A stretch of 64,000 nucleotides of DNA from Pyrobaculum oguniense TE7 (GCA_000247545.1 CP003316.1:1893233-1957232), one strand, 5' to 3'; shown: positions 2,122 to 63,915, counted from the stretch's first letter. Notes: generated from the sequence alone by a model not told the origin. Translations and numbers: made by a program.

Positions 2122-2626
2122 GCGCCAGCTCCTTCTTCTCTAGCCTGACGCCCTCCAGCTCTAGGTATTTGTCAACTGGTAGGCCGAGGTACTCCAGCTT
2201 CTTTTCCTCTATATCAAGCCCAAGCATCTCGTTAACTATCCTCTCCAGCTCCCAGCCCCTGCGCCTACCGTACTTTTCCACAACCTCGTCCAGCCTTGCG
2301 GCCACCGGCGGTGGAAGGGAGGCGCCCCGTCCCCCCTTGGCCACGATCTCTGTATACTCACCGAACCGAATCTCCACTAGGCCTCTCTCCTCAAGGCCCT
2401 CCACGGCATCGTAAACCTCGTTGCTCATAGGGCCAAATGACCAGATGTAAAACTCAGCCCTAGCGGCGGGATGCCCCCCGTAGGTATACTTGACAATCAC
2501 CCGGCCCAGGCGCCATTTCGACTCGTACTGCGTCAAAAACACCAGCTTCATCAGCTTCTTCATTCCCTGTACCTCCCCCATTTTTTTAATTATGTAAAGA
2601 ACCACGTCCTCAACCTGGTACTCCAT
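2081..2626 (-). CDS. Panacea/DUF4065 (SocA-like) domain protein, candidate antitoxin
   Basis: 181 residues. The N-terminal half carries MKKLMKLVFLTQYESKW and FYIWSFGPMSNEVYDAVEGL followed by EERGLVEI, matching the pattern of the DUF4065/Panacea domain (a K-L-K-L helix, then F-x-W-x-x-G-P, then a helix and wing). Panacea proteins are known in other prokaryotes as antitoxin modules that neutralise diverse toxins. The C-terminal third is charged and helical. A TATA-like ATATATAG lies about 24 bp before the ATG on this strand (around 2647-2654). It is the first gene of a two-gene unit with an overlapping nuclease-like gene, the order often seen for antitoxin-toxin pairs. Confidence 0.6.
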   Translation of the reverse strand: MEYQVEDVVLYIIKKMGEVQGMKKLMKLVFLTQYESKWRLGRVIVKYTYGGHPAARAEFYIWSFGPMSNEVYDAVEGLEERGLVEIRFGEYTEIVAKGGRGASLPPPVAARLDEVVEKYGRRRGWELERIVNEMLGLDIEEKKLEYLGLPVDKYLELEGVRLEKKELAHGRYKAEPQPPSG

Positions 2627-2716
2627 TACTCTCTATTCGTATACGTCTATATATCTGTTTTGCCATCCCGCCGATTGTGTCGTCTGATGTTTTTAAATAG
2701 GTTGAGTGGGAGCTAC

Positions 2717-3448
2717 GTGTTCACCTACTACCTCCGATGCGATGCTGAAAAGGCGAGGGAGGCGCTGGATGGGGACTACAAAGTGGTGGATCTCGGAGGC
2801 GCGGTGAGAGTGGTGGAGAGCTTTGTTACTCTGTACGCCGGCGGCGTGCCGCTCTGCATGTACAAGAGCTGGCGCATGACCTACACCGACTACCAAATCT
2901 ACGGCCTCGCCAAGGCGGAGGTTTTTGTCAGGAAAGACGGCGTATTGGTGAGGCTGGTGAGGGCCGACGAGAAGGTAGGCCTCCCAGAGCTAGTGGAGGG
3001 GTCGCCCCTAGTGGTCCACGCCATGGACGTCAACGAAAACGGCGTGATGTACCGCGTCTTCAGGATAGGCGGCTACGTGGAGCTGGCGGCGAGGGGAGTC
3101 GCTGGCGGGATAAAAGAGGCCTTCCACCCAAAGAAGGGGGTAAACCTGCTCATCGTCGACTTGCCCATCTCGCCGAAGTTCCAGCACCTACTGGGAGAGG
3201 CGTTCGACTTGGCGAGGGAGCACTTCGTTGAGCTCCACACCACGATGCTCTCCGACGTGTGCCCCCTGTGCGGGGGCCGGATGGAGAAGAGGGGGAGGCT
3301 GGTGCGGTGCCCCCAGTGCAAGGTGCAACTCAGCCGCGACGTAAACGCGGTTTGGGCCCTGGCGAGGAACATCGTGAGGAGGCTGGGCAGAGAGCAACAA
3401 CTGGCCGAGCTCAGGGAGATATTTCGCCTATACTACCCAAACGTATAG
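2717..3448 (+). CDS. Compact TnpB/OrfB-like protein (RuvC-like with C-terminal zinc ribbon)
   Basis: 243 residues from the GTG at 2717; an in-frame ATG at 2687 is the alternative. I prefer the GTG because TTTTTAAAT at 2690-2698 is a good TATA box 23 bp before it. The C-terminus has a four-cysteine zinc ribbon (C182, C185, C198, C201) followed by SRDVNAVWALARNI, the RuvC-III end of TnpB. VVHAMDVNENG (D104) resembles RuvC-I and LLIVDLP (D148) sits where RuvC-II should be, with Asp in place of the usual Glu. The N-terminal TnpB domains and most of the helical insert are absent (typical TnpB is about 400 residues). No TnpA or terminal repeats are visible. It is probably a domesticated or degenerate relative. 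Confidence 0.65.
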   Translation: MFTYYLRCDAEKAREALDGDYKVVDLGGAVRVVESFVTLYAGGVPLCMYKSWRMTYTDYQIYGLAKAEVFVRKDGVLVRLVRADEKVGLPELVEGSPLVVHAMDVNENGVMYRVFRIGGYVELAARGVAGGIKEAFHPKKGVNLLIVDLPISPKFQHLLGEAFDLAREHFVELHTTMLSDVCPLCGGRMEKRGRLVRCPQCKVQLSRDVNAVWALARNIVRRLGREQQLAELREIFRLYYPNV

Positions 3449-3587
3449 ACGGCGTTTCCAGCCTCTTAGGCCAAGCCCCTTAGCCTCCAGACCCGTTGCA
3501 GGGATAAACGCAGGGCAGGCTACCACGGTCATTAAAGCTACATACAACTACAGCCCGCATAAACGCGAAGGGAATCCTCAAGGTGGC

Positions 3588-3615
3588 AATGCTTTTAAGC
3601 CTGTTTTTTTGAGTC
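3588..3615 (+). promoter_or_regulatory. Surface-cassette promoter, copy 1
   Basis: AATGCTTTTAAGC then CTG, seven T's (3604-3610) and GAGTC before the ATG at 3616. The TATA-like CTTTTAAG is centred about 21 bp before the start. The same arrangement precedes the cassettes at 6348 and 12165. Confidence 0.65.
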
Positions 3616-5769
3616 ATGGTGTCCAGCAAGGCTATAATGTTGGCGTTAATAGGGTTAGTGATCCTCGTATTTGCAAGGGCTGGGGGAATAGCGGTGTATA
3701 TTAATAGCAGCGTGGAGATCCCGCCCCTGGCGTATTACGACGGAAAGGCGCTGAGGCCAGTCCATGTGACATACGTGGGGGAGTGGGACAGGGCGTTTTG
3801 GTATGAGGCCAACGCCACTGTTAATATACCCACGTGGAGTTTTAAAAAAGCCGTAATTTACCTACCGCGCGAAGCCCTCGGGGCTAGAGCCCCGCCTAAC
3901 TTCAAGAGGGGAGTCCTCCGCGTATATATAAATAATACTGTAGTAGAGCTCGTTGAGGCACCGCCGGAGGTAATAGCCACTTACAGCTATTTAAAGCCAG
4001 GCGAGGAGATAAAGGCTAGTAAGGCCAAAGCCACGTGGGTCAAGTCGCCAGTTGGAAGAGGGCCAGCGGAGAGGGATAAGGAGCAGAACGGGAGAGACGC
4101 TACTGACAAATTCAGCTCTGTCCTACAAGCGTTTCAAGCGTCTTCTGTTGTCTTTCCAGACGGCGCCTTTATATACAAGCAGTTTAATGGGTTGGTTAAC
4201 AGTAACAGTGAGCGGTGTCTGGAGGTTTTGAGGACTGACTCCTACAGCCCGCCAGATAATCCGACAGTGGCCTCTGTTGGTTATAACGCCACTTATGTGT
4301 GGAGGACTGCGTGGTATGTATTTACCAGTAGTCTCAGTAGCGGGGCAGTTGCGGGGAAGGGGGTAATTAAGGTGTGGGAGGTGGACCCGGCGACGCTAAA
4401 TAAGAAGTATCTCTTGGGGGCGTGGTCTGTGGATTTGAGAAACGGCTACGTCACGTTCACCACTTCAATCTCTCTGAACTGGCCCGATAAGTTCATAGGC
4501 TTAGAGCTGTGTTTCGTCCCCAGCGTCAGCGCCACGTATACAGTAGGCGCAAACGCCACTCTAGGCTTTAGGAAAAACGCCATATCAATTGCCATGGGGA
4601 GCTACTCGCTTGGGGTTGTCCCAGTAGACAGGACGCAATATGTGGGTGGCGTTGTGTATTACCAAGTCCTTCGACCCCCCATTAGGAATATTATTTTTGG
4701 TCCATTTACTCTAGCTGACGGTTATTACGGCCAGACGCTGAACTTAGATATGACCGTATACGTGCCGTGGAGCACATCACAATGCCCGACGCTTGTAGTG
4801 ACGACATACGTGGGAGATTTAGCCCACATGCAAATCGACTCGATCTCCTTTACGGCATCTGGGTACGGCAACGGCGCGTGTAGATATGAGGTGAGGAGGA
4901 CGGTCACGCTCAGCTCTTCCGCAATCGGGTTCTGGTACGACGAGGCGAGGGCTAGGGACAAGGCCGTGGTTATAAGAGTTTCGTTTAACTACAACGTCTC
5001 AGAAGTGGTAATATACAGAGTGGACATCTCGGGATACAGATTTGCAGAAAACTACATAGATAAAAACGTTAACTCATGGCTGACCCTTGTACTCAGGGGC
5101 TACTACTCGCAGACGCTTAGAGCTTGCACTATGGCGAGGTTGCCGCAAGTGAACTATACAGTGGTCTTGGCCAATATAGAGACGTATAGCGCGGCAGCGG
5201 GAACAAGGCCCGCCGACTTCCTTGCCGTTAACGTAGGCGCTCCAAGTGGGTATAAAATACAGAGCGTGGAATTCCGCATTAGACCGTCTGCCGCATTTGC
5301 GCCTCCTGTTAATGTGTACGTCAAGGGTACGAAGTTTGAAGAGCCCTGGTGGTTGACTTGGACGTTTAGAATTGCCCAAGCGATAAAGACGGTACTAGAC
5401 TTCCTTGGCCTCATACCAGGTCCTTTGAGCTGGTTTATAGATAGAGTTTTTGATCTCCGCGGATTATTATACCCGGATTTGACTATTACGCAGACCGCTG
5501 ATTATGTTGCTGTAACTTGGCGTGCTGGAGTGTACGACAGTTATTACCAAGTGGCGTTTGAAATTGGCGTGGCTAACGTAGACAGAGTGCTAGAGGCGAC
5601 TAATGTATATGTCTCAAATTCTGCCTATTTGTGCATGTACGCGCCCATTTCATCACAGATGCCCAAGCTAGATACCAATGCCCCATTTGATACCCAATAC
5701 CTCAGACACTGGGTATACGGCATAAGGGTTACCCGTGACATCCCGTTTATAGTAGATGCGGCTGGTTAG
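3616..5769 (+). CDS. Large secreted surface protein of the four-copy cassette family (copy 1)
   Basis: 717 residues. An N-terminal signal peptide or anchor (about 1-22, LALIGLVILVFARAGG) is followed by a beta-rich region with N-x-S/T sites. A charged linker spans about 135-165 (KSPVGRGPAERDKEQNGRD) and is followed by a long Tyr/Ser/Thr/Asn-rich beta core. A hydrophobic helical segment starts near residue 575 (EEPWWLTWTFRIAQAIKTV), and a beta-rich tail closes the protein. The EPWWLxW segment recurs in copy 4. I recognise no characterised family. The protein is presumably exported and glycosylated. Its stop overlaps the start of the next gene by 14 bp in the +1 frame. Very likely a real gene; function unknown. 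Confidence 0.9.
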   Translation: MVSSKAIMLALIGLVILVFARAGGIAVYINSSVEIPPLAYYDGKALRPVHVTYVGEWDRAFWYEANATVNIPTWSFKKAVIYLPREALGARAPPNFKRGVLRVYINNTVVELVEAPPEVIATYSYLKPGEEIKASKAKATWVKSPVGRGPAERDKEQNGRDATDKFSSVLQAFQASSVVFPDGAFIYKQFNGLVNSNSERCLEVLRTDSYSPPDNPTVASVGYNATYVWRTAWYVFTSSLSSGAVAGKGVIKVWEVDPATLNKKYLLGAWSVDLRNGYVTFTTSISLNWPDKFIGLELCFVPSVSATYTVGANATLGFRKNAISIAMGSYSLGVVPVDRTQYVGGVVYYQVLRPPIRNIIFGPFTLADGYYGQTLNLDMTVYVPWSTSQCPTLVVTTYVGDLAHMQIDSISFTASGYGNGACRYEVRRTVTLSSSAIGFWYDEARARDKAVVIRVSFNYNVSEVVIYRVDISGYRFAENYIDKNVNSWLTLVLRGYYSQTLRACTMARLPQVNYTVVLANIETYSAAAGTRPADFLAVNVGAPSGYKIQSVEFRIRPSAAFAPPVNVYVKGTKFEEPWWLTWTFRIAQAIKTVLDFLGLIPGPLSWFIDRVFDLRGLLYPDLTITQTADYVAVTWRAGVYDSYYQVAFEIGVANVDRVLEATNVYVSNSAYLCMYAPISSQMPKLDTNAPFDTQYLRHWVYGIRVTRDIPFIVDAAG

Positions 5770-6316
5770 AGAGCTTGGCCTAAAATATTTGGCTTTTTCC
5801 CCAGCTATCCTAGCCTTTCCCTACCTTTCCTACGGGCCGCTGGTGAGCTGGGATCCCTCTTGGGGTTTTAGGATGGGGGTTGGGCTGATGGGCCTCGGGC
5901 ATTATCTATACTTAGTCATGCAAGTGGCGTACTATGCTTGTAAACTCCCGCCGAAATACATAGCCCTTTCCACAGCGGTTTTTTTAGCATACTTCTTGTC
6001 TTTGACGCGGCCTGAGCTGGTCGTCTTGTCGCTAGTCGGGCTTATCTACTCAGCGGCTGTTGTTTTGTACTTCGGCGTGAAAGACGGAGTTTTCGCGAAC
6101 TGGCTTGGGGCTATCGCGTGGCTATTCCTCTGGAACTTAATAGGAGGGGTTTTGTCAATTCCAGCGCATATTTACTTCGGCGGGGGAGACATATGGCTGT
6201 GGTGGAGGGAGCCCCCGGCAGATCCCCTCTACGCGCTGGCAGTGGGAATTGCGGGGGCCGTGGCGACGTGGGCTTTGGGTAAAATCCGCCTACTGGTTGA
6301 ATTCACCTGCCGGTAG
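5756..6316 (+). CDS. Small multi-pass membrane partner of the surface cassette (copy 1)
   Basis: 186 residues, four to six hydrophobic helices and short loops, no signal peptide. It starts MRLVRELGLKYLAF; the pattern MR...GLK recurs at the start of the copy 3 partner. The start codon lies inside the end of the large gene (14 bp overlap, +1 frame), which suggests translational coupling. A WLWWREPPADP loop lies near residue 150. No characterised family is recognised. Position suggests it anchors, exports or processes the large protein, which is inference. Confidence 0.85.
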   Translation: MRLVRELGLKYLAFSPAILAFPYLSYGPLVSWDPSWGFRMGVGLMGLGHYLYLVMQVAYYACKLPPKYIALSTAVFLAYFLSLTRPELVVLSLVGLIYSAAVVLYFGVKDGVFANWLGAIAWLFLWNLIGGVLSIPAHIYFGGGDIWLWWREPPADPLYALAVGIAGAVATWALGKIRLLVEFTCR

Positions 6317-6319
6317 CGT

Positions 6320-6347
6320 AATGTTTATAAAGCCGTTTTTTTGACAT
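6320..6347 (+). promoter_or_regulatory. Surface-cassette promoter, copy 2
   Basis: AATGTTTATAAAGCCG, then seven T's (6336-6342) and GACAT before the ATG at 6348. It differs from the copy 3 promoter at only a few positions, and the similarity extends a few bases upstream (TAGCG). Confidence 0.7.
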
Positions 6348-8669
6348 ATGTTGTCTAGAAGAGCGTTAATAACTGCGATGTTATTAATTGCAGTACTAAG
6401 GGCGGCGGATATTTCCAGCTACGTCTTCGTAGAGTTTAACCCGGGAGACGGCTTTCCCTACGTTGTGATTAACTCCACAGCGGTTGAGCCAGTGCCCATA
6501 GTCTACATCATGGTAGAGAGAGATATAATAATGCAGGAAATGGCTTTAAACACCACCATGTACTTGCCCCAGGGCGTGTACCTTGCCTTACCCAGGAGGT
6601 ATTTCGCGCCGCGGCCGCCGGCGCCTCCGCCGGGCGTAAGGGGGCGTGTGGTGGACATAGAGGTAGAGGGCTTGGGAGTAGCCCGGGTTGTCATCGCCAG
6701 AAACGCCACGGAGATCCCCAACGCCGTGGCTTACTATGTGTATCTAGACGCGGAGGAGAGAGGCGGGAGGTATTACTACAAAGGCAAGCCGCTGGACGTC
6801 AGAAGGCCCAAGACGCCGAGGGACCGGGCGGGCGGTAGCGCCCAGGGTAGCGAGCCCGTGGGCCAAGCGGAGCCGATGTACTACACAGAGACTAAAAGCG
6901 GCACCGCCGTAAGTAGCTGGGCGAGATACGTCTTCAACCCAGCGTCGCCAATTAACGTGAGAAACCCCCCATCTTCTAGCTACACGCCGGTGAGGTACTT
7001 CAACGCCACGGGTTACGCCAACAACGACTTTGTAATGGGCACAACTCCATGGGCCTATCTAGGCCATGGCGTCTCTGACATATATCTAGCCATCCAAGGG
7101 GGGTCGAGTAGCTCTATCCGCTACTCCCTTTGCCCCTACTCCACGCCTACTCCAACTCCCCCGGCGTCGCCCACCGCCTCCCCATGCGTGCGCAACTCCC
7201 AGACCGCGCCGAGCTTCGGCCGCTACCTATTGGCGCGTATAAGCGCGGCGCCCTATGCCAATAGCTATTTATGGTTCTACGCAGAGATTTACAACCCACT
7301 TAACCTTCCCATCAACGCCTCTATAGCTGTGGTGTACAACAGGCCCGCCCCTTCGGACGGCTCCGTCTACTCTTTGCTAACGGCCAACTGGCTCTCCTCA
7401 GTGGGCCAGCCGGGATACACATTCGGCGCAGACTACGGCTACAGCGTGAGGGTGTCCAGACTCCTCTTTACTGTTAGAATACCACCAGGCGCCCAGATGC
7501 CTATAAACATTGCGTTAGTAGGCCTGGCGGTATACACCTGTAGCCCCAGCTCTACACTTACCGTAAAGATATACACGCCGGCCGACCCAAACGCCTACGT
7601 CACAGCCACGGGGCAGAAGTACACATCTGCCGAATGCGCCACATACTTCTTTAGCGACATATACGGAACTTTGCCGGAATCAGCCGTAGTTCCGTTACTA
7701 GCGGCGAATTCTACGGTGATACCGCTGATTATAGAGTTTAATCCCAGCCTCTATGCCAGCTACCCAAATCGAGTAACTGTGACGTTTAAATCACTATTTG
7801 CCTTCGGCCAGCGCTGGCCAGAGATATGGAGACACAACGCCAACAATTGGATAAGCAGTTCTAAGACTTACCCATACACAACATTACCTGTTAAAGTTGT
7901 TTTTAGAGATTACTTAGCATTTTCAGTGTGGTCCACTGCGTATAATTTAAAGAACGAGTCGGTATCTCCATGGACAGATCTCAACATATTAGCTTACGCC
8001 GTGTTGACTACACAAGTAGGCTCTAGCGTAGCTTACGATCCACCCTCGTTCCCTAGGGCTTCGCTACAGTACATCCCTCTCGATCAATATCTTCAACTTA
8101 AGAAGGTGTGTCTGGCGTTTGAGAGCGTAAAGGCTGGCGCGGTTGGCTCGTTGACTACCTACGTCAGCGTTGAGGGGCAGAGCCCGTGGCTTGAGGCGTT
8201 TGCCTCCATTGTTTCCGCCGTTACTAATGCAATTGGAAACACTATAACAGGTTATCAGATAATAAGCAAGATTTTTGGACTGGCGATGCCCTCGTTTTTA
8301 GGACCCCTTGGCTACGTGGTTTGGGGGCTTGGCATATTCGCGGCGTTAGTGCCCATGTCTGGAAATATCAACTGTGCGCCGTCTTCAGACTGGCTCTCTC
8401 ACGGCTACGACGCGGGTACTGGGTACATAAAGGCGGCGGGATGGAAAATAGGCACGAATGAGTTGCCGTCTTACGCCGGGGGGCTTAAGGTGAAGATCTC
8501 TATGCTGATTGACCACTCGTTTTACCACAGTGTAAAAACCGTTGCGCCGGGAAGGGGGATATACGTAGACTTCTTCTCCTATGCCATATTTGACTCCTCT
8601 AACTACTTCACAGGGCCGTTGGAGCCCTATGCGCTGGGCGTTGGGAGGTTCTATCTTAAAATCCAGTAG
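6348..8669 (+). CDS. Large secreted surface protein of the cassette family (copy 2)
   Basis: 773 residues. N-terminal signal peptide (about 1-22, ALITAMLLIAVLRAADISS), beta-rich N-terminal domain and Pro-rich stretch (RPPAPPPG, about residue 88). A charged linker lies near 150-180 (RRPKTPRDRAGGSAQGSEP). Near 260 there is a Pro/Thr/Ser-rich insert flanked by cysteines (PTPTPPASPTASPC). A long beta core follows, and a late hydrophobic segment starts near residue 610 (SPWLEAFASIVSAVTNAIG). The PNAVAYYVYLD segment matches PEVIATYSYLK in copy 1. It is a divergent paralogue of copies 1, 3 and 4 and of unknown function. The start is fixed by the shared promoter 5 bp upstream. Confidence 0.9.
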   Translation: MLSRRALITAMLLIAVLRAADISSYVFVEFNPGDGFPYVVINSTAVEPVPIVYIMVERDIIMQEMALNTTMYLPQGVYLALPRRYFAPRPPAPPPGVRGRVVDIEVEGLGVARVVIARNATEIPNAVAYYVYLDAEERGGRYYYKGKPLDVRRPKTPRDRAGGSAQGSEPVGQAEPMYYTETKSGTAVSSWARYVFNPASPINVRNPPSSSYTPVRYFNATGYANNDFVMGTTPWAYLGHGVSDIYLAIQGGSSSSIRYSLCPYSTPTPTPPASPTASPCVRNSQTAPSFGRYLLARISAAPYANSYLWFYAEIYNPLNLPINASIAVVYNRPAPSDGSVYSLLTANWLSSVGQPGYTFGADYGYSVRVSRLLFTVRIPPGAQMPINIALVGLAVYTCSPSSTLTVKIYTPADPNAYVTATGQKYTSAECATYFFSDIYGTLPESAVVPLLAANSTVIPLIIEFNPSLYASYPNRVTVTFKSLFAFGQRWPEIWRHNANNWISSSKTYPYTTLPVKVVFRDYLAFSVWSTAYNLKNESVSPWTDLNILAYAVLTTQVGSSVAYDPPSFPRASLQYIPLDQYLQLKKVCLAFESVKAGAVGSLTTYVSVEGQSPWLEAFASIVSAVTNAIGNTITGYQIISKIFGLAMPSFLGPLGYVVWGLGIFAALVPMSGNINCAPSSDWLSHGYDAGTGYIKAAGWKIGTNELPSYAGGLKVKISMLIDHSFYHSVKTVAPGRGIYVDFFSYAIFDSSNYFTGPLEPYALGVGRFYLKIQ

Positions 8670-9177
8670 TCTTTTTTCCCTCGGATTCCTCTCGCTTTTC
8701 TCGGCGTCACTCCTCCCCCTGGGATCTGCCCAGCTTATCCGCGCCAATGTGGCGTATACCTTCTCGGTCGTGTCGGCCGTGTGCCTCTTCGTGTCGTGCC
8801 GCCGTTATTTTTACACAGCCGCGGCGTTTGGGGCCGTTTTGTGGGGGCTGTCCTTCGCCTACCCCCACTTCCTCGTGGCGTTTCTCTCCATGTGGCTTTA
8901 CCTGGGCTGGGCTTGGCTCGGCTTGCTGTGGGCCTCTTGGAGGCTTTGGAGAGTTAAAGGCGTTGTCACCGCCTTTGCGGCGCTGTATGTGATAAACCTT
9001 ATGTACATACCCCTCGAATTTGCCAATTTATTGCCCGATTGGGCGCTGGCGGCAATAGGGGACAACCCTCGCACGACCTTCCTCAACTGGGCTAGGTATT
9101 TGCTAACCTATCTCACCACCATGGCCGTGTTGCAGACAATCCGCGTCTTGGCCAAGCTCGACCAGCGGCGCCGCTAG
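8629..9177 (+). CDS. Small multi-pass membrane partner of the surface cassette (copy 2)
   Basis: 182 residues from the ATG at 8629 (MRWALGGSILKSSS). The reading frame is open further upstream (ATG 8581), but 8629 matches the MR start of the copy 1 and 3 partners. Five or so hydrophobic helices, a Trp-rich centre (MWLYLGWAWLGLLWASWRLW) and a basic C-terminus (LAKLDQRRR). It overlaps the large gene by 41 bp in the +1 frame. Its TAG stop shares a CTAG with the stop of the convergent radical SAM pseudogene. Function unknown. Confidence 0.8.
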   Translation: MRWALGGSILKSSSLFSLGFLSLFSASLLPLGSAQLIRANVAYTFSVVSAVCLFVSCRRYFYTAAAFGAVLWGLSFAYPHFLVAFLSMWLYLGWAWLGLLWASWRLWRVKGVVTAFAALYVINLMYIPLEFANLLPDWALAAIGDNPRTTFLNWARYLLTYLTTMAVLQTIRVLAKLDQRRR

Positions 9178-10062
9178 GATAGGAGGTGGCTTCCGTCGCA
9201 GTGCGCACCTGGTGTGTTCAAATCGGCGAACTCCTCCCGGCAGATGTTGAACTGGAGGCCGTGGCGCCTGGCGTATTCAGCCACAAGCGCCAGGATTCTC
9301 CTCCTGTACTCCCTCGGCGCGTACCACTGTCCGTGGAAGTACTGCCCCTCTTGGAAGTACATCCTCCGCCAACGTGAGTGCTTTGTCTGGAAAGGCCTTT
9401 GCCAGGCGGGCAAAGTTATCTCTCTTGGCCTTATACGTACTGGCGACGAGATGTTTAGCCCCGGCCTCAGCGGCTTTTGACACCACCTCCTCAATATTGT
9501 CCACGTCGTCGTTGAGCAAGGGAATTAAGGGGTCAAGCCTCACTGCGACGGGCACTCCAGCCTCCGAAAGGCGCCTTACGGCGTCAAGCCTCCCCGCGGG
9601 CCGCGGCGCCCCAGGCTCTAATACCGACGCCAGCTCTTCTCTAAGCGTGGTGATTGTGATCTGCACCGCCACACGCCCCCTGTGTCTTTGGAAGATGTCT
9701 AAATCCCGGAGGACGAGGGGGGACTTCGTCACTATAAGCACCTTGTACCCCCTCTCCAAGAGCATTTGCAATACCCTCCGGGTCAGCCCCAGCCTCGCCT
9801 CTGGAGGGGTGTAGGGGTCGGAAGAGTTAGATAGGGACACCACGGCGCCTTTTGGAATTTTTTCCAGATCCCGCCTCACTTTATCCAATAGGTCCTCCTT
9901 GGGCCGGGGATTGAAGGCATCTGGTATATACGACGTGATGTAGCAGTAAAGACACCCGTGGCCGCAGCCGGTGTAGGGGTTGAGGCCGTATTTAAAGGGG
10001 CAGGTGCAGAGGGGGTTGCCCCAGGGGTCAAAGGGCCTGACGACGCTAAGCGATATGCGCAT
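9174..10062 (-). pseudogene. Radical SAM (SplB-like) gene with a +1 frameshift, left-arm copy
   Basis: The N-terminal 230 residues match the right-arm copy (16604-17509) almost residue for residue, including the Fe-S motif CGHGCLYCY. After AFPDKA the frame changes. The right copy reads GCCCCCACCTGGCGC while this copy reads GCACTCACGTTGGCGG, one base longer, near 9373. The rest of the protein (RRMYFQEGQYFHGQWYAPRE to GAHCDGSHLLS) continues intact in the next frame down to a TAG at 9174. A single insertion therefore truncates the product at 9277. It could be a recent inactivation, a sequencing error or a recoding site; the intact downstream part suggests the lesion is recent. Confidence 0.75.
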
Positions 10063-10071
10063 ATCGGGCGG

Positions 10072-10839
10072 CTATCTCCTCTGCCCCACCTCTATCCCCA
10101 GCTCTCTCAGCTGTTTGCTAAGCATTTTCAACATGGTCTTGACGTCTATCTCGGCCACGCGTCCGTTGACAATTTCAAAATGTATCCAGTCGTGGGCAAC
10201 CTTAAGCCTCCTCGCCCTAGATATCCTCATACGCCTCACGTACAGCCCCATCTCCTCCAAGTTGGGATCCACCTCTATTTGTATAACCACGTCTGCCAAG
10301 TGGACGGATGTAGCCAACACGCCGTATACCTCCTCCACGTCTGTATGCGCAGTAGCCACGACTATGGAGTCGGTATGCCTGGCAAAGATCTTAAAGGCGC
10401 GGAACACGTCTAGCGCAGACCCCGGGCTTCTTATCAACACTTCGTTAAGCGAGTCCACCACGACGACGCCCCCTCTGAAATCCCCGGCGAATTCAGCCAG
10501 CTTATTCACCAAGGCGTAGGCGTCAGGCGTCTCAAGCCTGTGTCTAAACGTCGGCTTCAACTTGGCCAGCCGCTCGCCGGGCGCGACAAATCCGTCAACA
10601 ACTATTACCCGGTCCGCCGGCCCCCCGTGGCTTTTTAACTCCTCTAAAACCTCGTCTGCCAGCGCGTCAATGGCGAAGAACAAAACGGGCGCCCCTGCCC
10701 TTGCCGCCGTCGCCGCTATAGTTGAGGCGAAGAAAGTCTTCCCCACTCCAAGGAAGCCCTCAATTAGGACCACGTAGCCAGGGGGGATGCCATCGGGAAT
10801 CTGCTCGTCTACTGGATCAATTCCCGTCTTAAAACCCAT
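10072..10839 (-). CDS. KaiC-like RecA-superfamily ATPase, left-arm copy
   Basis: 255 residues, single RecA-like domain. Walker A is EGFLGVGKTFF (about residues 28-38) and Walker B GGVVVVDSLNEV (about 122-133). A later ATAHTDVEEVYGV segment is typical of KaiC-like proteins. The starting block MGFKTGIDPVDEQIPDGIPP is shared with the right-arm copy (15832-16599). It is followed after 9 bp by the radical SAM gene, so the pair is probably one operon. Archaeal single-domain KaiC relatives are nucleotide-dependent regulators of mostly unknown role. Cytoplasmic. Confidence 0.85.
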   Translation of the reverse strand: MGFKTGIDPVDEQIPDGIPPGYVVLIEGFLGVGKTFFASTIAATAARAGAPVLFFAIDALADEVLEELKSHGGPADRVIVVDGFVAPGERLAKLKPTFRHRLETPDAYALVNKLAEFAGDFRGGVVVVDSLNEVLIRSPGSALDVFRAFKIFARHTDSIVVATAHTDVEEVYGVLATSVHLADVVIQIEVDPNLEEMGLYVRRMRISRARRLKVAHDWIHFEIVNGRVAEIDVKTMLKMLSKQLRELGIEVGQRR

Positions 10840-11285
10840 GTAAAAAACGCGACGGCCTTATTAAAAACTTCGCCTCCAATCAATAAGTATAACACTTTGC
10901 GGAGCGGGCCCCTCCGGCATCCTAACAAAGGGGCGTTTATTTTTACCTCCAAGAATGCTGTTATATACGCAAAAGAGCCGCGACAAATATTCCCAATAAA
11001 CGCCGTGAAGAGATGCGGTACTCCTGACTCTTCGTTGTAGTTTACAAATCCGTGGGCGGCGGCGTTTATCACCTCGCCTGCGTCTGGTGTAAAGAGCAGA
11101 ACAACACTTGTGCACCTAACAGTCTCGTCGTAAAACTCCACTATCGCCGTCAATGCGACTGTAACCAGCAGTGTGGCGATTACTACTGCTAGAGATCATA
11201 GTGTAGTGAACAATACCTATTTTTCGTTAATAACGGATTTTAAATGCTGTTGCCTAACAGAGAGGGAATAAAAATGGCACGGCCC
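10840..11285 (-). other. Spacer between left-arm KaiC and phosphoesterase genes, with a possible broken pilin-like ORF
   Basis: 446 bp without a firm gene. On the minus strand from about 11196 to 10940 a frame reads SLAVVIATLLVTVALTAIVE followed by a mixed segment (TSVVLLFTPDAGEVINAAAH). It resembles the hydrophobic N-terminus of archaeal type IV pilin-like proteins. An ATG at 11199 lies one base out of frame, so any such gene is broken or starts at the TTG at 11153. The equivalent spacer of the right arm shows no counterpart. Confidence 0.3.
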
Positions 11286-11918
11286 CTAATAATACAGCTT
11301 TTTTAAACTCACCACGGCCTTTGTTCCATCTAGTACCGCCTCGGCGTAGTAGCCGTCTTTCAAGGGGCCTGGGTTGACGACGATCGTATCGCCGATTATG
11401 TCAATGCCTCTATCCTCGTGTATGTGGCCGTGGACGGAGAGAATCGGTTGTTTTTCCTCGATGTATTTCTTAACCGCCAGGCTGCCAACTGGCCTTACCC
11501 CGCCCACTTTGTCTAAATGTCCCCTCGGCGGGTTGTGGACCACCAAGACGTGGGGCGTGGGCGTAAGGGAGTAGAGTAGCCCCTGGAGATCCTCTTCCGA
11601 CACTCTGAACAAGTCGTTGAAGGGCGTCGGGAGGCTCCCCCCGGCGCCTCCGATCACGTAGGGGCCCAGCCTTTGAGTCCTCCCGTGGACAGGCTTAATA
11701 GAGTCCTTCTCAAACCCGGCCAGCTCCGGAGGGTCTGTATTCCCCGGCACGAAGTACACAAGGGCTATCCCGGCGAGAGCCTCCAGCGCCTCCACAGCCG
11801 CCTCAACGCTCCGCTTGTAGGTGAAGTCGCCAGCCGCTATTACCGCGTCGTAACTGCCCCGGATTAATCTCACTTGTTTAACTCCGTCGTGTACATCGGC
11901 GACTAGTAGCAGGCGCAT
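11286..11918 (-). CDS. Calcineurin-like metallophosphoesterase, left-arm copy
   Basis: 210 residues with the full set of metallophosphoesterase motifs in order: DVHD (about 8-11), GDFTY (about 31-35), GNTD (about 60-63), VVHNPPRGHLD, and HGHIHEDRG with the metal-binding HxH pair (about 160-167). It resembles the small archaeal phosphoesterases of the COG2129 type; the substrate is unknown. A partner of very similar sequence is at 14815-15441. The TATA-like GTTTAAAAC lies about 27 bp before the ATG on this strand. Its start faces the copy 3 surface cassette promoter across 246 bp. Confidence 0.88.
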   Translation of the reverse strand: MRLLLVADVHDGVKQVRLIRGSYDAVIAAGDFTYKRSVEAAVEALEALAGIALVYFVPGNTDPPELAGFEKDSIKPVHGRTQRLGPYVIGGAGGSLPTPFNDLFRVSEEDLQGLLYSLTPTPHVLVVHNPPRGHLDKVGGVRPVGSLAVKKYIEEKQPILSVHGHIHEDRGIDIIGDTIVVNPGPLKDGYYAEAVLDGTKAVVSLKKLYY

Positions 11919-12136
11919 TTGCGCTTTAAGATATTCTGTTTTAAACTTGACGGCGCTAGTTAATGCGCCTCCCTACATTTATATAACAACATGTAGAACG
12001 GCGACTAGGCAAAGCAAAAGCGACACTGGGAAGCACTCTCCAACACTCGCCAAAGTCCCCGGGCGTACCCAGACCTCACAGCCCCCTCGCTTTTTAACGC
12101 GGAAAGGACACTGAATAGGAAATACTACTATAGCGC

Positions 12137-12164
12137 AATGTTTATAAATCCGTTTTTTTGAGGC
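12137..12164 (+). promoter_or_regulatory. Surface-cassette promoter, copy 3
   Basis: AATGTTTATAAATCCG, seven T's (12153-12159) and GAGGC before the ATG at 12165. It is nearly identical to the copy 2 promoter, including an upstream TAGCG. Confidence 0.7.
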
Positions 12165-14255
12165 ATGTTGCCGAGATCTCTTCTAGTAATGGCGTTGGCG
12201 GCTTGGGCTGTGTTGCTAACAGCGCAGGGACCGCCTGGGGAGCTGTTCTGCGCCTCGGCGGGGGAGCTGGGGCTTGCGGGAGAGCCGTCAACGCTTATGT
12301 TCTCAGTGTTTGAAAGGGGGTCTTGGAGGCCTGCCGCCGCATATATAGAGCCGGAGAACGTCACCTTCCTCCTCGTGCCGCTCCTCACTAGAAACGACAC
12401 TGACATATCTAAAGCCGCGGTGCCGGGCAGGCTCCCGCCCCCTGTCTTGAGAAACGAGACAGTGGTGTGTTTTGAGGCCGCCCCGGGGAGGCCGGCGGTG
12501 AGCCCGCCCGCGCCCGGCCTCCTCATAGTGGCTGAGAAGGGGGGCGCCAAATACCACGTCTTCGTCGCGAGGGCCGAGGATGTGGAGAACCCCGCCAAAT
12601 TCACGCTGGCCCTGCCCGATAAGGCCGAGGGGAGGAAGCCGGACAAGGTAGAGCTGGTGGACAAACGGCCGCCTCGCGGGGGCAAGAGGGGACAGCCAGA
12701 GGCAGATGCTCAGTCCGTGAGTAGCCTTAGCTACTGGGCCGCCTTCAAGCTGTACAAGACCTCCACCCAGCTCGCCGCTGGGCAGTGCGCCAGCACGGTC
12801 TTCGACGTGCCCGACGGCACCTCCCAAGTGGCCGTCGTTCTAACAGGGGGCACCACCCCCGGCGCGTACCAATACACCATATACAACACCTTCAACCCGT
12901 CCCAGAGGTGGAGCGGCACAGTATACGTGCTACAAGGCTCGCCCCAGACGGTGGCGGCTTGGCTGTCCTCCGGAAGAGCCCAGTACTACGTACAGATATG
13001 CAACAGAAACTCCCAAACCGCCGCCGTATACACATCTGTACTGCTAAAAGCCCAGAACCAGCAGTATTTCAGAAACGACGTTATAAGAACTCCTAGGCTC
13101 TACATCTACACCTACTTGCCTACATACTGCGGTGCGGGCCTCTGTCCAACCGTAGTGTATCAAAACTCCTACTTCGCCATTCCCGGGTTTTACGTAGACG
13201 CCGCCTCCTATATCTTCCTCAACATCTATGTAAAGGTGCCAAAAGCCGCCGCCACGTCCAACCCAGTTGTTGTGTACTGGGGAGGTATCCCCGTGGCGAC
13301 TCTCTACGGCTACGACTCGGGAAACTACAAAATCTACTCAGGCGAGGTGGTGGTGCCGGACAGCTACTTGATGCACCTCCTACCCACCTACGGCCAAGGC
13401 GGAGTCATCTCAATAGGCCCCTTCACCATATACGCAAACGCCGCATATGAGGTAGAGGTCAAGGCGGCTGTGAGGAGGCCGCAGGAGCTGGCGCCTGCAG
13501 GCGATGACAGGGTATACAATACATATGTCAGGAGGTTTAGAGAAAGCTTCCTATTCCTAGACAAGAGGGCGTTCATAGCCGACATAGACTACATCTCGGG
13601 TACTGGATATGGCCACTTTGTTATCAGCACTAAGCCGATTAAAGACATTGGCACCAGCGCCTTTTCATACGTTCGCTTCTACGTGAAGTTCTACGACGAA
13701 TATATGAATCCTGTTTATGTCGTGGGAGACGGGGCCCTGCCGGTCTATCCATCGTCGGGGCGGGATGATCTTTTGGGCAAAATACCTATCATTTTGCTGA
13801 TACTGCAGATATACGACTTGATCAAGAGCTCAATTGATGCCTTGAAAAAGGCAGTGCCAGGTTTCCCAATAATTAGCTACATAACTTCAGCCATGGACGC
13901 CTATGTTCGAGCATCGGAAGCATCAGTCAAGGCAGAGATGGTAGATCCTTATACGTTAAGGATTACACTGTATACTGGTTGGTACAACGATCCGCTTACG
14001 ACATGGATAATCGCATCCCCCGTAGGATTACCGTACTACTTTGCGGTGACTGGGATTGAATACTTTGTTATGGAGCCTTATTTCCCGTGGATTACTGTGT
14101 TCAGATTGGACAAGCCTGCGTTGCCATACACATCGTACGGATATGTCGAATATATGACCAACACCACCTACTTTCCTTACAGGACCTTGACCTGCGGCGT
14201 ACAAGAGGCAGGTGATTTCCGCCCAGACCTCTGTGACTATGCGTATTATCGCTAG
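12165..14255 (+). CDS. Large secreted surface protein of the cassette family (copy 3)
   Basis: 696 residues. Signal peptide about 1-22 (LLVMALAAWAVLLTAQG) and an N-terminal domain with two cysteines (LFCASAGE, VVCFEAAPG). The charged linker lies near 148-175 (RKPDKVELVDKRPPRGGKRG). A Tyr/Thr/Ser-rich beta core follows, with scattered cysteine pairs (YCGAGLC). The late hydrophobic segment lies near 538-575 (IPIILLILQIYDLIKSSIDA), followed by a beta-rich tail. Layout matches copies 1, 2 and 4. It is the only copy enclosed by the inverted duplication. It overlaps the next gene by 17 bp in the +1 frame. Function unknown; an exported, probably glycosylated surface or filament protein is inferred. 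Confidence 0.9.
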   Translation: MLPRSLLVMALAAWAVLLTAQGPPGELFCASAGELGLAGEPSTLMFSVFERGSWRPAAAYIEPENVTFLLVPLLTRNDTDISKAAVPGRLPPPVLRNETVVCFEAAPGRPAVSPPAPGLLIVAEKGGAKYHVFVARAEDVENPAKFTLALPDKAEGRKPDKVELVDKRPPRGGKRGQPEADAQSVSSLSYWAAFKLYKTSTQLAAGQCASTVFDVPDGTSQVAVVLTGGTTPGAYQYTIYNTFNPSQRWSGTVYVLQGSPQTVAAWLSSGRAQYYVQICNRNSQTAAVYTSVLLKAQNQQYFRNDVIRTPRLYIYTYLPTYCGAGLCPTVVYQNSYFAIPGFYVDAASYIFLNIYVKVPKAAATSNPVVVYWGGIPVATLYGYDSGNYKIYSGEVVVPDSYLMHLLPTYGQGGVISIGPFTIYANAAYEVEVKAAVRRPQELAPAGDDRVYNTYVRRFRESFLFLDKRAFIADIDYISGTGYGHFVISTKPIKDIGTSAFSYVRFYVKFYDEYMNPVYVVGDGALPVYPSSGRDDLLGKIPIILLILQIYDLIKSSIDALKKAVPGFPIISYITSAMDAYVRASEASVKAEMVDPYTLRITLYTGWYNDPLTTWIIASPVGLPYYFAVTGIEYFVMEPYFPWITVFRLDKPALPYTSYGYVEYMTNTTYFPYRTLTCGVQEAGDFRPDLCDYAYYR

Positions 14256-14787
14256 GTTTGGGCTAAAATCGACTTTTTTCCTCTACCTCTTCTCATACGT
14301 GTTGCTGGCCGGCGTGGCTGTGGGGGCTTTTAGGTATCCTCACTTCATGTTGGTTGGGGCGCTGGCGTACGTCGCCGCGTATTACGTGGCCTGCGGCCGG
14401 TGGCTATTCCCGACTGCGACGTACGGGGCTGGGCTATTGGTCTTGGCTTTCGATAAGGTGTTTCCCCCGGCTTCGGTTTTCGGGCCGCTCCCGGTAGACG
14501 CGAGCTGGGTGCATCTCTACTTCCCAGCGGCCGGCGGGGCGCTGGTGCTGTACGCCGGGACCTTCGCCAAGAGGTTTGGGTGGAAGGTGCTCTCGGTGTT
14601 TTCCATACTGCTGGCCGTTGGTCTGGGGCACGTGTTCATCTCGTGGGTTAGCCCCTTCTGGAGACTGATTGTTCCGTCCCTCGGCCTGGCGCCCGTATTC
14701 CCCGAGCCTTTCGACGCCCCGTTGTACATACTGCTGTACCAGATGTGGAGGGTGGTCCATCAAGTCTTCACCCGGGTTAGGTGTTGA
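14239..14787 (+). CDS. Small multi-pass membrane partner of the surface cassette (copy 3)
   Basis: 182 residues from the ATG at 14239 (MRIIARFGLKSTFF). This start shares MR...GLK with the copy 1 partner and is preferred over an upstream ATG at 14212. About five hydrophobic helices, with WLFPTATYGAGLLVLAFDKV in the middle and a basic tail ending VFTRVRC. The start codon lies within the last codons of the large gene. The right-arm phosphoesterase begins 28 bp after its stop. Confidence 0.82.
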   Translation: MRIIARFGLKSTFFLYLFSYVLLAGVAVGAFRYPHFMLVGALAYVAAYYVACGRWLFPTATYGAGLLVLAFDKVFPPASVFGPLPVDASWVHLYFPAAGGALVLYAGTFAKRFGWKVLSVFSILLAVGLGHVFISWVSPFWRLIVPSLGLAPVFPEPFDAPLYILLYQMWRVVHQVFTRVRC

Positions 14788-14814: not shown

Positions 14815-15441
14815 ATGCGCCTCCTCCTAGTTGCCGATGTCCACGACGCTGTTAGGAACATAAAGGCTATTAGGGGTAGCTACGACGCCGTCATAGCCGC
14901 CGGGGATTTCACCTACAAGAGGCAGCTTGACGCCGCGGCCGAGGTGCTTGAGGCCCTAGCCGCGATTGCGCCGGTGTACTTCGTCCCCGGCAATACCGAC
15001 CCGCCCCAGCTCGCCGCCTACGAGAAGGGGTACATCAAGCCTCTTCACGGAAGGACGGCGGCGCTGGGCCCCTACGTTGTCGGCGGCGCCGGGGGGAGCT
15101 TGCCGACTCCCTTCGACGACTTGTTCAGAATGACTGAGGAGGATCTGCAACGCCTCCTCTCCTCCCTAAGCCCAGCCCCCCACGTCCTCGTAGTGCACAA
15201 CCCGCCCCGCGGCCACTTGGACAGGGTCGGCGGCGTGAGGCCGGTGGGTAGCGTAGCCGTGAAGAGGTACATAGAGGAGAGGCAGCCCATCCTCTCGGTC
15301 CACGGCCACATTCACGAGGATCGCGGCATAGACATAGTCGGCGACACGATAGTCGTAAACCCCGGCCCCCTCAAAGACGGCTACTACGCCGAGGCCGAGC
15401 TCAACGGCGCCAAGGCCGTGGTGGTGCTGAAAAAGATATAG
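14815..15441 (+). CDS. Calcineurin-like metallophosphoesterase, right-arm copy
   Basis: 208 residues, intact, with DVHD, GDFTYK, GNTDPP, VVHNPPRGHLD and HGHIHEDRG in the standard order. It is very close to the left-arm copy over the whole length. GAGTTTTTAAC about 20 bp before the ATG can serve as its own TATA box, although the cassette gene ends only 28 bp upstream and read-through is possible. Substrate unknown. Confidence 0.88.
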   Translation: MRLLLVADVHDAVRNIKAIRGSYDAVIAAGDFTYKRQLDAAAEVLEALAAIAPVYFVPGNTDPPQLAAYEKGYIKPLHGRTAALGPYVVGGAGGSLPTPFDDLFRMTEEDLQRLLSSLSPAPHVLVVHNPPRGHLDRVGGVRPVGSVAVKRYIEERQPILSVHGHIHEDRGIDIVGDTIVVNPGPLKDGYYAEAELNGAKAVVVLKKI

Positions 15442-15831
15442 CGGCCACTGAAGCGGCCCGCTCCTACACGTAAGTCGAGCGGTTCTCTGTTTTTCAGCTG
15501 CCACAGGGCGATGCGGAGTCCCGGATCCACAAGTTGCTTTGAGCAAGCGGCTCATGTCTCTGGGGTTGATTTTCTACATGTACCAGGCTCAACCCGTAGA
15601 TCCGAAACCGAAGGAGCCCCGCGAACCGGCGTGTCCATCGGGATAGGCGTCTATTGACGACGGTGAGCCGCGCCGCGGGCTACGCCCTTTGGGCGGCTGG
15701 GCATGTGGACAAGGCGTATGTGATGCGCACCTCGACGCCATATCCACTGTGTTTGTGCCTCTACCTGTCGGCTTCTTGCCTCTTACACCTTTTTGGCGGT
15801 AACTGTTTTTTAGTTGGCGAAAGGATGTGTC
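15442..15831 (+). other. Spacer between right-arm phosphoesterase and KaiC genes
   Basis: 390 bp with no supportable gene on either strand. A TATA-like CTGTTTTTTAG near 15803-15812 is about 23 bp before the KaiC-like start and is its probable promoter. The remainder is GC-rich and I see no clear remnant. Confidence 0.5.
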
Positions 15832-16599
15832 ATGGGATTTAGAACTGGCATTGAGCCCATTGACGAACAGATCCCCGAGGGCATCCCCCCGGGGTACGTG
15901 GTTTTGATAGAGGGGTACCTGGGGGTTGGGAAGACCTTCTTCGCCTCCACCATCGCCGCGACGGCGGCAAGGGCCGGCGCGCCTGTGCTCTTCTTCGCCA
16001 TAGACGCCCTCGCCGACGAGGTGTTGGAGGATCTCAAGCGGCGGGGCGCCCCCACCGATAGCATCACAGTAGTGGACGGCTTCGCGGCGCCCAGCGAGCG
16101 CTACGCAAAGCTCAAGCCCCCGTCGAGGCACAGGCTGGAGACGCCCGACGCCTACGCGTTGATGAACAAGTTGGCGGAGTTCGCGCCGGAGTTCCGGGGA
16201 GGCGTCGTGGTGGTGGACTCGCTGAACGAGGTATTGATAAGGAGCCCCGGCTCCGTCCTAGACCTCTTCAGGGCGTTTAAGATCTTCGCCAAGTACACGG
16301 AGTCGGTTGTGGTGGCCACCGCCCATACCGACGTCGAGGAGGTCTACGGCGTCATAACCGCGGCGTCGCACCTAGCCGACGTCATAATACAAGTCGAGGT
16401 GGATCCCAACTTGGAGGAGATGGGCCTCTACGTGAGGCGCATGCGCGTAGCGAGGGCGAAGCGGCTGAGGATTTCCCACGACTGGGTCCACTTCGAGGTG
16501 GCGGATGGCCGCGTTGTTGAGATCGACGTAAAGACCATGTTGAAGATGCTGAGCCGACAACTGAAGGAGATGGGTATCGAGGTACGCCAGAGGCAGTAG
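15832..16599 (+). CDS. KaiC-like RecA-superfamily ATPase, right-arm copy
   Basis: 255 residues from the ATG at 15832 (MGFRTGIEPIDEQIPEGIPP), which matches the left-arm start; an upstream ATG at 15814 lies in the promoter. Walker A is EGYLGVGKTFF and Walker B GGVVVVDSLNEV. The C-terminus KTMLKMLSRQLKEMGIEVRQ matches the other copy. The radical SAM gene begins 4 bp after the stop, so these two are one operon. Probable cytoplasmic regulatory ATPase; partner and role unknown. Confidence 0.87.
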   Translation: MGFRTGIEPIDEQIPEGIPPGYVVLIEGYLGVGKTFFASTIAATAARAGAPVLFFAIDALADEVLEDLKRRGAPTDSITVVDGFAAPSERYAKLKPPSRHRLETPDAYALMNKLAEFAPEFRGGVVVVDSLNEVLIRSPGSVLDLFRAFKIFAKYTESVVVATAHTDVEEVYGVITAASHLADVIIQVEVDPNLEEMGLYVRRMRVARAKRLRISHDWVHFEVADGRVVEIDVKTMLKMLSRQLKEMGIEVRQRQ

Positions 16600-16603
16600 C
16601 CCA

Positions 16604-17509
16604 ATGCGCGTTTCGCTGAATGTAGTCCGGCCCTTCGACCCGTGGGGCAATCCCCTCTGCAGATGCCCCTTTAAATACGGGCTAAACCCTTACACTGGAT
16701 GCGGGCACCGTTGCCTATACTGCTACATAACCTCGTACATCCCCAATGCCTTCAGCCCCAGGCCCAAGGAAGACCTCATTGACAAGGTAAGGCGCGACTT
16801 GGAGAAGATCCCCAGAGGTGCCGTCGTCTCCCTTTCCAACTCCTCTGACCCCTACACCCCGCCGGAGGCCCAGCTGGGACTGACAAGGAGGGTGCTCCAG
16901 ATGCTTCTGGAGAGGGGCTACAAGGTGTTGATAGTCACCAAGTCCCCCCTAGTCTTGCGGGACTTAGACGTTCTGCAACGGCACCTAGGCCGCGTCGCAG
17001 TTCAGATAACCATAACAACCCTGAGGGAGGACCTCGCCGCCGTCTTGGAGCCAGGCGCCCCTAGGCCCGTTGGTAGGCTGGAGGCGGTGAGGCGACTCTC
17101 CGAGGCCGGCATACCGGTTACGGTGAGGCTCGACCCCATTATCCCCCTGCTCAACGACGACGGGGAGAACATAGAGGAGGTGGTGTCCAAGGCCGCAGAG
17201 GCGGGGGCGAGGCACCTCGTGGCAAGCACCTACAAGGCTAAGCGGGACAACTTCGCCCGCCTCGCCAAGGCCTTCCCCGACAAGGCCCCCACCTGGCGCA
17301 GGATGTACTTCGAAGAGGGGCAGTACTTTCACGGCCAGTGGTACGCCCCGAAGGAGTACCGGAGAAAGGTGCTGACACGCGCCGCGGAGGCCGCGAGGAG
17401 GCACGGCTTACAATTTAACATATGCAGGGAGGAGTTCGCCGATTTGGAGACGCCTGGAGCCTACTGCGACGGGAGTCAAATGCTGGGCGAGACAAGCCAG
17501 CGTATCTAG
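16604..17509 (+). CDS. Radical SAM protein, SplB-like (COG1533 type), right-arm copy
   Basis: 301 residues, intact. The 4Fe-4S/SAM motif is CGHRCLYCY (about residues 33-41), after FKYGLNPYTG. A second conserved block is SLSNSSDPYTPPEA (about 79-92), typical of the spore-photoproduct-lyase-like COG1533 radical SAM group. A C-terminal EGQYFHGQWYAPKEYRR and a cysteine pair (ICREE, AYCDG) complete it. The reaction is unknown. Co-transcribed with a KaiC-like ATPase. The left-arm copy is frameshifted, so this is probably the functional version. Confidence 0.88.
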   Translation: MRVSLNVVRPFDPWGNPLCRCPFKYGLNPYTGCGHRCLYCYITSYIPNAFSPRPKEDLIDKVRRDLEKIPRGAVVSLSNSSDPYTPPEAQLGLTRRVLQMLLERGYKVLIVTKSPLVLRDLDVLQRHLGRVAVQITITTLREDLAAVLEPGAPRPVGRLEAVRRLSEAGIPVTVRLDPIIPLLNDDGENIEEVVSKAAEAGARHLVASTYKAKRDNFARLAKAFPDKAPTWRRMYFEEGQYFHGQWYAPKEYRRKVLTRAAEAARRHGLQFNICREEFADLETPGAYCDGSQMLGETSQRI

Positions 17510-63871: not shown

Positions 63872-63915
63872 GTTCCAAAAAAAAAACGTTTTTTTAAGCT
63901 TTATTCATTACGGAC
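63872..63915 (-). promoter_or_regulatory. Surface-cassette promoter, copy 4 (with A7CGT7 palindrome)
   Basis: Minus strand: TAATGAATAAAGC, TTAAAAAAACG, ten T's (63877-63886) and GGAAC before the ATG. A perfect palindrome of seven A's, CG and seven T's lies at 63880-63895. The AATG/TATA-like/T-tract order matches the other copies, with a longer T tract. Confidence 0.6.

Follow-up and report, generated by a model that had tools for sequence, protein, structure and literature searches.

Paired large- and small-protein gene cassettes in Pyrobaculum: interspecies transfer, apparent central replacement and a candidate variable surface complex

Here, I show that large, divergent proteins of Pyrobaculum belong to cassettes in which a small membrane-protein gene follows almost every large gene. 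New here are a nearly identical tract found in two species, the divergence of the centre of C-type cassettes between conserved ends, and the enrichment of homopolymer runs in the promoters; to these are added the pairing of the two genes, the homology of the large proteins and a layout seen in two predicted structures. The reading that I favour, with a confidence somewhat short of even, is that of a hypervariable, possibly phase-variable, membrane-docked surface complex, organised like VARTIG.

The product of the first gene would be a secreted protein of tandem jelly rolls with a single amphipathic helical hairpin close to its end, and that of the second a multi-pass membrane protein cognate to it. 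The two products may form a complex docked at the membrane, the small protein presumably keeping its large partner at the cell surface, where the latter could face other cells or viruses. Diversity would be generated in three ways: whole cassettes or blocks of cassettes would move between species and settle in shared hot spots; near-identical cassette ends would act as recombination arms, the centre being swapped as one unit; and slippage at the runs between the TATA box and the leaderless start could switch or tune each cassette.

Four divergent gene pairs and one superfamily of large proteins

The window, i.e. the whole stretch of 64,000 nucleotides that was analysed, corresponds to bases 1,893,233-1,957,232 of the P. 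oguniense TE7 chromosome. The genome comprises 2,452,920 bases, namely a chromosome of 2,436,033 bases and a 16,887-base element (PMC3558965). Four large genes and four small ones are present where the initial annotation had placed them, with small corrections of starts, and the overlap of each small gene with the end of its large gene is seen in all four pairs (Table 1). All the large proteins have a hydrophobic segment at the N-terminus and a late hydrophobic stretch, and all the small ones about 5-6 hydrophobic segments (about 4-6 transmembrane segments superfamily-wide). The window types A, B, C and D have in common a TATA-like box, a T run and a leaderless ATG, so that the conservation of layout and promoter despite high sequence divergence, proposed at the outset, holds among the window cassettes. 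Other early statements need amending: four copies is right for the window and an undercount for the genome, which has 14 large genes; the recurrent EPWW motif is found in P0001 and P0007, P0003 having SPWL and P0005 no such motif there; and the MR...GLK start attributed to the small partners is that of P0002 and P0006, which P0004 and P0008 fit loosely.

Table 1. Cassettes, promoters and transferred tract in the window
Feature	Position	Strand	Remarks
Type A promoter	3585..3615	+	TATA-like CTTTTAAG, T7, ATG, leaderless layout
Type A large secreted protein P0001, 717 aa	3616..5769	+	ORF; profile homology to types D/E, B, C
Type A small multi-pass membrane partner P0002, 186 aa	5756..6316	+	14-nt overlap with large gene
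Type B promoter	6320..6347	+	TTTATAAA, T7 (T8 in P. aerophilum copy), ATG
Type B large secreted protein P0003, 773 aa	6348..8669	+	ORF; BLAST to P0007; profile link to A/D/E
Type B small membrane partner P0004	8629..9177	+	ORF; hydrophobic segments
Type C promoter	12137..12164	+	TTTATAAA, T7 (T8 in P. aerophilum copy), ATG
Type C large secreted protein P0005, 696 aa	12165..14255	+	ORF; AlphaFold model; contains transferred-tract edge
Type C small membrane partner P0006	14239..14787 (ATG); alternative GTG start 14212	+	ORF
Type D promoter	63872..63905	-	A/T-rich box with T10 run
Type D large secreted protein P0007, 740 aa	61649..63871	-	ORF; AlphaFold model
Type D small membrane partner P0008, 177 aa	61144..61677	-	ORF
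Tract 99.8% identical to P. aerophilum chromosome 630.7-639.8 kb	3401..12490	.	flanks 57-79% identical
Imported radical-SAM/KaiC-like/metallophosphoesterase genes	9277..11918 (whole set from 9187)	-	inside tract
Resident copy of radical-SAM/KaiC-like/metallophosphoesterase genes	14815..17509 (inverted repeat to 17478)	+	~76% identical to imported, inverted

By BLAST, similarity among the window large proteins is weak, P0003-P0007 being the best pair (7e-5; 36% over 36 aa) and P0001-P0007 reaching 6e-4. When their relatives are included, three clusters emerge: A/D/E (with P0001 and P0007), B (with P0003) and C (with P0005). Comparison of profiles with hhalign links A/D/E to B (probability 97.4, E 1.6e-11, 435 columns) and to C (probability 96.5, E 7.5e-10, 370 columns), while the direct comparison of B with C is weak. 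Judging from these links, the four large proteins belong to one superfamily, and the initial view of the units as paralogous is borne out as far as the large proteins are concerned. Across the A/D/E, B and C clusters, homology of the small proteins is not demonstrable by sequence or profile comparison; they are too divergent to be joined, so a single small family is unsupported.

The initial annotation had recognised no known family, and library searches agree: P0001-P0008 have no match in Pfam, NCBIfam, PHROGs or PADLOC, the 17 members of alignment A5 give chance-level matches only in Pfam, and no solved structure was matched by sequence. For a C-terminal toxin domain the same four libraries gave no match, with the proviso that a new toxin could still escape them. 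The early suggestion that the units build filaments gains nothing from these searches, no filament or S-layer family being matched; nor did libraries and Foldseek relate the large or small proteins to a known adhesin, S-layer protein or receptor by family or confident fold. A virus or plasmid origin was also considered and set aside, single-protein scans of phages, plasmids, PHROGs and IMG/VR having given no match.

AlphaFold2 models were built with genus-level alignments for P0007 (17 sequences; mean pLDDT 79.1, pTM 0.76) and P0005 (12 sequences; mean pLDDT 72.6, pTM 0.74). In both, the predicted order is an N-terminal helix (the signal peptide), a beta domain to about 150, a linker, tandem jelly-roll-like sheets, two helices and a final beta domain. 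The linker (~154-186), which is the charged linker of the initial annotation, is modelled with low confidence as disordered; the two helices form a hairpin at 593-636 in P0007 and, with low confidence, at 540-583 in P0005. As modelled, P0007 and P0005 thus share one layout, where unrelated folds would have spoken against the grouping of the large proteins. With both models Foldseek found no close relative, the best matches being two-jelly-roll and other beta-sandwich proteins with a query TM near 0.1.

Pairing and distribution among genomes

Profile searches covered 45 genomes of the order and, for the A/D/E profile, also 81 genomes of the class. Full-length members were found only in Pyrobaculum; the A/D/E profile matches 7 of the 81 class genomes, all of one genus, and in the class-wide scan some Pyrobaculum genomes have no large gene. 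In all, 50 large loci are spread over six Pyrobaculum genomes. The genomes named below are G000, which is P. oguniense TE7, the source of the window; G001, which I take to be P. aerophilum IM2 and which is the P. aerophilum copy in all comparisons; G002, presumably P. calidifontis; and G006, taken as Pyrobaculum sp. WP30.

In 47 of the 50 loci the large gene is followed, usually with an overlap, by its own separate small hydrophobic ORF with 4-6 transmembrane segments. Homologues that never occur with the partner would have told against the proposed unit; those outside the window do have it. Of the three other loci, one is a fused gene (G002), one has a small ORF interrupted by a stop (G003), and the third, at G000:713590, has no partner. 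The last (G000:C1:713590-715539) is a weak C-type large ORF of 649 aa. In the G002 locus (L027:1468-3825) a C-type large gene runs on in frame into a C-type small gene, giving 786 aa; as proof of an interaction it was discarded, for it lacks the large-protein end and the small-protein start and could have arisen by decay.

In most copies both long reading frames are still open and, extreme though the divergence is, the motifs are retained and cysteines are mostly even in number. At four loci (G001, 1615 and 1862 kb; G003, 350 and 1267 kb) the large gene is broken and a small ORF is kept; G007 and G008 have small-gene remnants only, that of G007 lying where other genomes have a D-type cassette. 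All clear cases of a small gene with no large one beside it are truncated remnants. Besides full-length and broken copies and these remnants, the profile searches gave N-terminal fragments, and no stand-alone rear-end (toxin) or immunity cassette. Among the fragments are short A/D/E large-protein N-termini with an in-frame stop (G003:C1:1754854-1755018 and G009:C1:1316070-1316210), and an interrupted N-terminal piece of B type from an incomplete genome of another genus in the family (G013:C14:33228-33590), where it may reflect an old transfer or contamination.

Recent transfer and apparent replacement of the cassette centre

The left part of the window is a hot spot, shared between species, which lies between an ABC transporter and a rhomboid/aminoacyl-tRNA-synthetase region. 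At this place G001 has cassettes of types F, A, B, C and E, and G003 two E, one F and two C cassettes; Pyrobaculum sp. WP30 has none around the KaiC-like operon found there. An ORF of the window (2471-3448) has a Cas12f1-like/TnpB zinc-ribbon (TNB) domain, and ORFs of 243-246 aa similar to it occur in G001, G003 and WP30 at the matching hot spot; the tract described next has its left edge near the end of the window ORF. An over-representation of cassettes in regions that P. arsenaticum lacks (PMC3558965, Table 5) is not pressed, these regions holding ~4 of 14 loci as against ~18% of the chromosome (own sum).

Along the hot spot P. oguniense and P. aerophilum are 57-79% identical up to ~3.4 kb; from there to ~12.4 kb identity is 99.5-100% in most windows of comparison and 97% in two; to the right of ~12.4-12.49 kb, inside the type C large gene, it falls to 75-84% and then to about 60-66%. 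More distant flanks are 67-80% identical. The tract of about 9.1 kb contains cassettes A and B, the KaiC-like operon and cassette C up to about codon 110, and shows 22 differences, 3 of which are single-base indels. An identity of 99.8% between flanks of 57-79% is what a recent interspecies transfer would leave, and on this comparison the tract is a recent transfer between P. aerophilum and P. oguniense, one of its crossovers lying inside a gene. Both a resident and an imported KaiC-like operon are present in P. oguniense, which is for this reason likely to have been the recipient. The resident operon lies directly behind the imported one, which accounts for the inverted duplicate; an inversion of cassette C between the flanking inverted duplicates was rejected, the copies being only ~76% identical and transfer explaining the duplicate better. 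The three inversions reported for the P. oguniense genome lie elsewhere (PMC3558965, Table 7). Two clusters of substitutions inside the tract (8683-8697 and 4219-4371) are possibly short patches of gene conversion.

On a smaller scale, C-type cassettes appear to have exchanged their centres. Two of them, at 2068 kb in G003 and 683 kb in G009, occupy unrelated places with unrelated flanks. From ~150 nt upstream of the large gene to about codon 270 they are 84-98% identical; from that codon on, and through the first two thirds of the small gene, identity drops to 45-59%; at the end of the small gene it is 95-99%, and beyond it similarity is lost. Fourfold sites repeat the pattern (73-97%, then 12-55%, then 89%), therefore different or relaxed constraint alone is insufficient as an explanation. 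Similar divergence towards the rear is seen in the C-type pairs at 2081 and 2329 kb in G003 and in G000/G001. Near-identical ends around a diverged centre suggest that the large gene's rear and the small gene's front were exchanged as one piece. C-type cassettes are the only ones in which this mosaic was seen, divergence being even along most B, D and E pairs. A wider tracking of the large-protein rear by the small protein was looked for by distance correlations and dropped, these being similar for all parts of the large protein, its front included. The initial annotation had supposed that the units provide variety at the surface, a role with which the recombination and the interspecies transfer are compatible.

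Promoter runs and possible roles

A homopolymer run in the promoter, a feature of phase-variable loci, is common in the superfamily. Within 45 bases upstream, a T or A run of at least 7 occurs in 23 of 42 distinct large genes and in 10 of 377 other ORFs of the regions retrieved, which served as controls (Fisher p 6e-19, a value inflated by the relatedness, and hence non-independence, of the cassettes). Two of the three indels of the transferred tract (6335 and 12152) sit in promoter T runs, T7 standing against T8 in near-identical copies; the third is an additional A at 9371 in the imported radical-SAM gene, which is either a frameshift or a misread. Sequencing by 454 is prone to homopolymer errors. 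As P. oguniense was sequenced largely by that method (PMC3558965), both T7/T8 differences and the radical-SAM indel may be reading errors. These runs make a concrete case for examining promoter phase variation in archaea.

The closest parallel is VARTIG of the Thermococcales (PMC8416519), where likewise a gene for a large secreted beta-sandwich protein comes first and type-specific membrane proteins follow, recombination between strains and species makes the large protein hypervariable at its rear, the distribution is patchy and limited to one lineage, and function is unassigned. In Pyrobaculum the type-specific membrane gene is present in the 47 loci mentioned above, and diversification of the rear by interspecies recombination in C-type cassettes only, in which crossover edges are visible in the DNA, a further difference from VARTIG. 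Moreover, each large gene here has one small partner instead of a heterogeneous set of extra genes; no Ig domain was matched in Pfam, beyond chance level, in P0001-P0008 or the 17 A5 members, the models showing tandem jelly rolls and a helical hairpin; and the cassettes are confined to Pyrobaculum, VARTIG having no reported counterpart outside Thermococcales (PMC8416519). For want of Ig domains and of the lineage, the cassettes are not classed as VARTIG members. Another system on this plan, seemingly unrelated and from a distant phylum, would point to a strategy common to both. In archaea, few hypervariable loci of self/non-self recognition or conflict are known. The exchange of a 9-kb block between species so diverged in its flanks, and the promoter runs, if slippery, raise the prospect, attractive if rather unlikely, of phase-variable, recombination-diversified surface recognition in a crenarchaeon, with segments and cassettes circulating among Pyrobaculum species and recognition (self/non-self, virus entry or antagonism) shared and changed community-wide.

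The main rival takes the large protein for a secreted, membrane-active effector that works through its helical hairpin, and the small one for the immunity protein dedicated to it, in the manner of pore-forming colicins; I regard it as possible, on the unlikely side. Predicted archaeal polymorphic toxins have reportedly been surveyed by Makarova et al. in mBio in 2019. Near-strict pairing with overlapping genes speaks for the toxin-immunity reading, as do a large gene conserved in front and variable at the rear with a co-varying small-gene front in C-type cassettes, transfer and the hot spot, and the persistence of small ORFs at the four broken loci and as lone remnants in two further genomes. 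Polymorphic toxin systems (PMC3482391) resemble the cassettes in their multi-domain secreted protein with a variable rear, exchange by recombination and dedicated adjacent partner gene, for which the adjacent membrane gene is the putative counterpart in immunity; they differ in that the Pyrobaculum cassettes have no recognised toxin domain in any library, no recognised delivery domain and no stand-alone rear cassettes, their clear lone small genes being truncated. In addition, a single run-bearing promoter would shut immunity off together with the toxin, which would be dangerous among kin. A promoter common to the two genes is in keeping with a unit that is switched whole, as supposed for the surface complex.

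An improbable alternative is that the jelly rolls bind ligands or glycans or form an enzyme like PNGase or PHM, the small protein being a signalling or transport partner and diversity tracking changing ligands. Foldseek matches PNGase Bb weakly to both models (E 9e-7, TM 0.11/0.15 and similar for the second model), and PNGase F and PHM, each with two jelly rolls, to the C-type model; an Arg/Glu pair (R472 and E475 of P0007) lies within a motif seen in all three clusters. Against this, no superposition on the PNGase/PHM two-jelly-roll superfamily is confident (query TM ~0.1, target TM at most ~0.2), there is no sequence similarity to solved structures, and C has no equivalent of Asp364, which is invariant in A/D/E. 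A PNGase-like enzyme was rejected, the fold resemblance being weak.

That the cassettes are mere passengers of a recombination-prone genus, expanding selfishly or neutrally with no recognition role, agrees with a variable copy number, broken copies and genomes that have none, and is very doubtful given that most copies keep long frames, even cysteines and motifs, and that promoters are kept.

Pyrobaculum has other multi-copy, strain-variable genes, the PaREP repeat families (PMC3558965). The large and small proteins of the window match no Pfam family, the PaRep models included, and the cassettes are thus distinct from the PaREP families in Pfam. Finally, on the minus strand at 1522-2626 the window contains a Panacea/SocA-like antitoxin gene that overlaps a gene for a 199-aa protein without a Pfam match, possibly a toxin-antitoxin pair.
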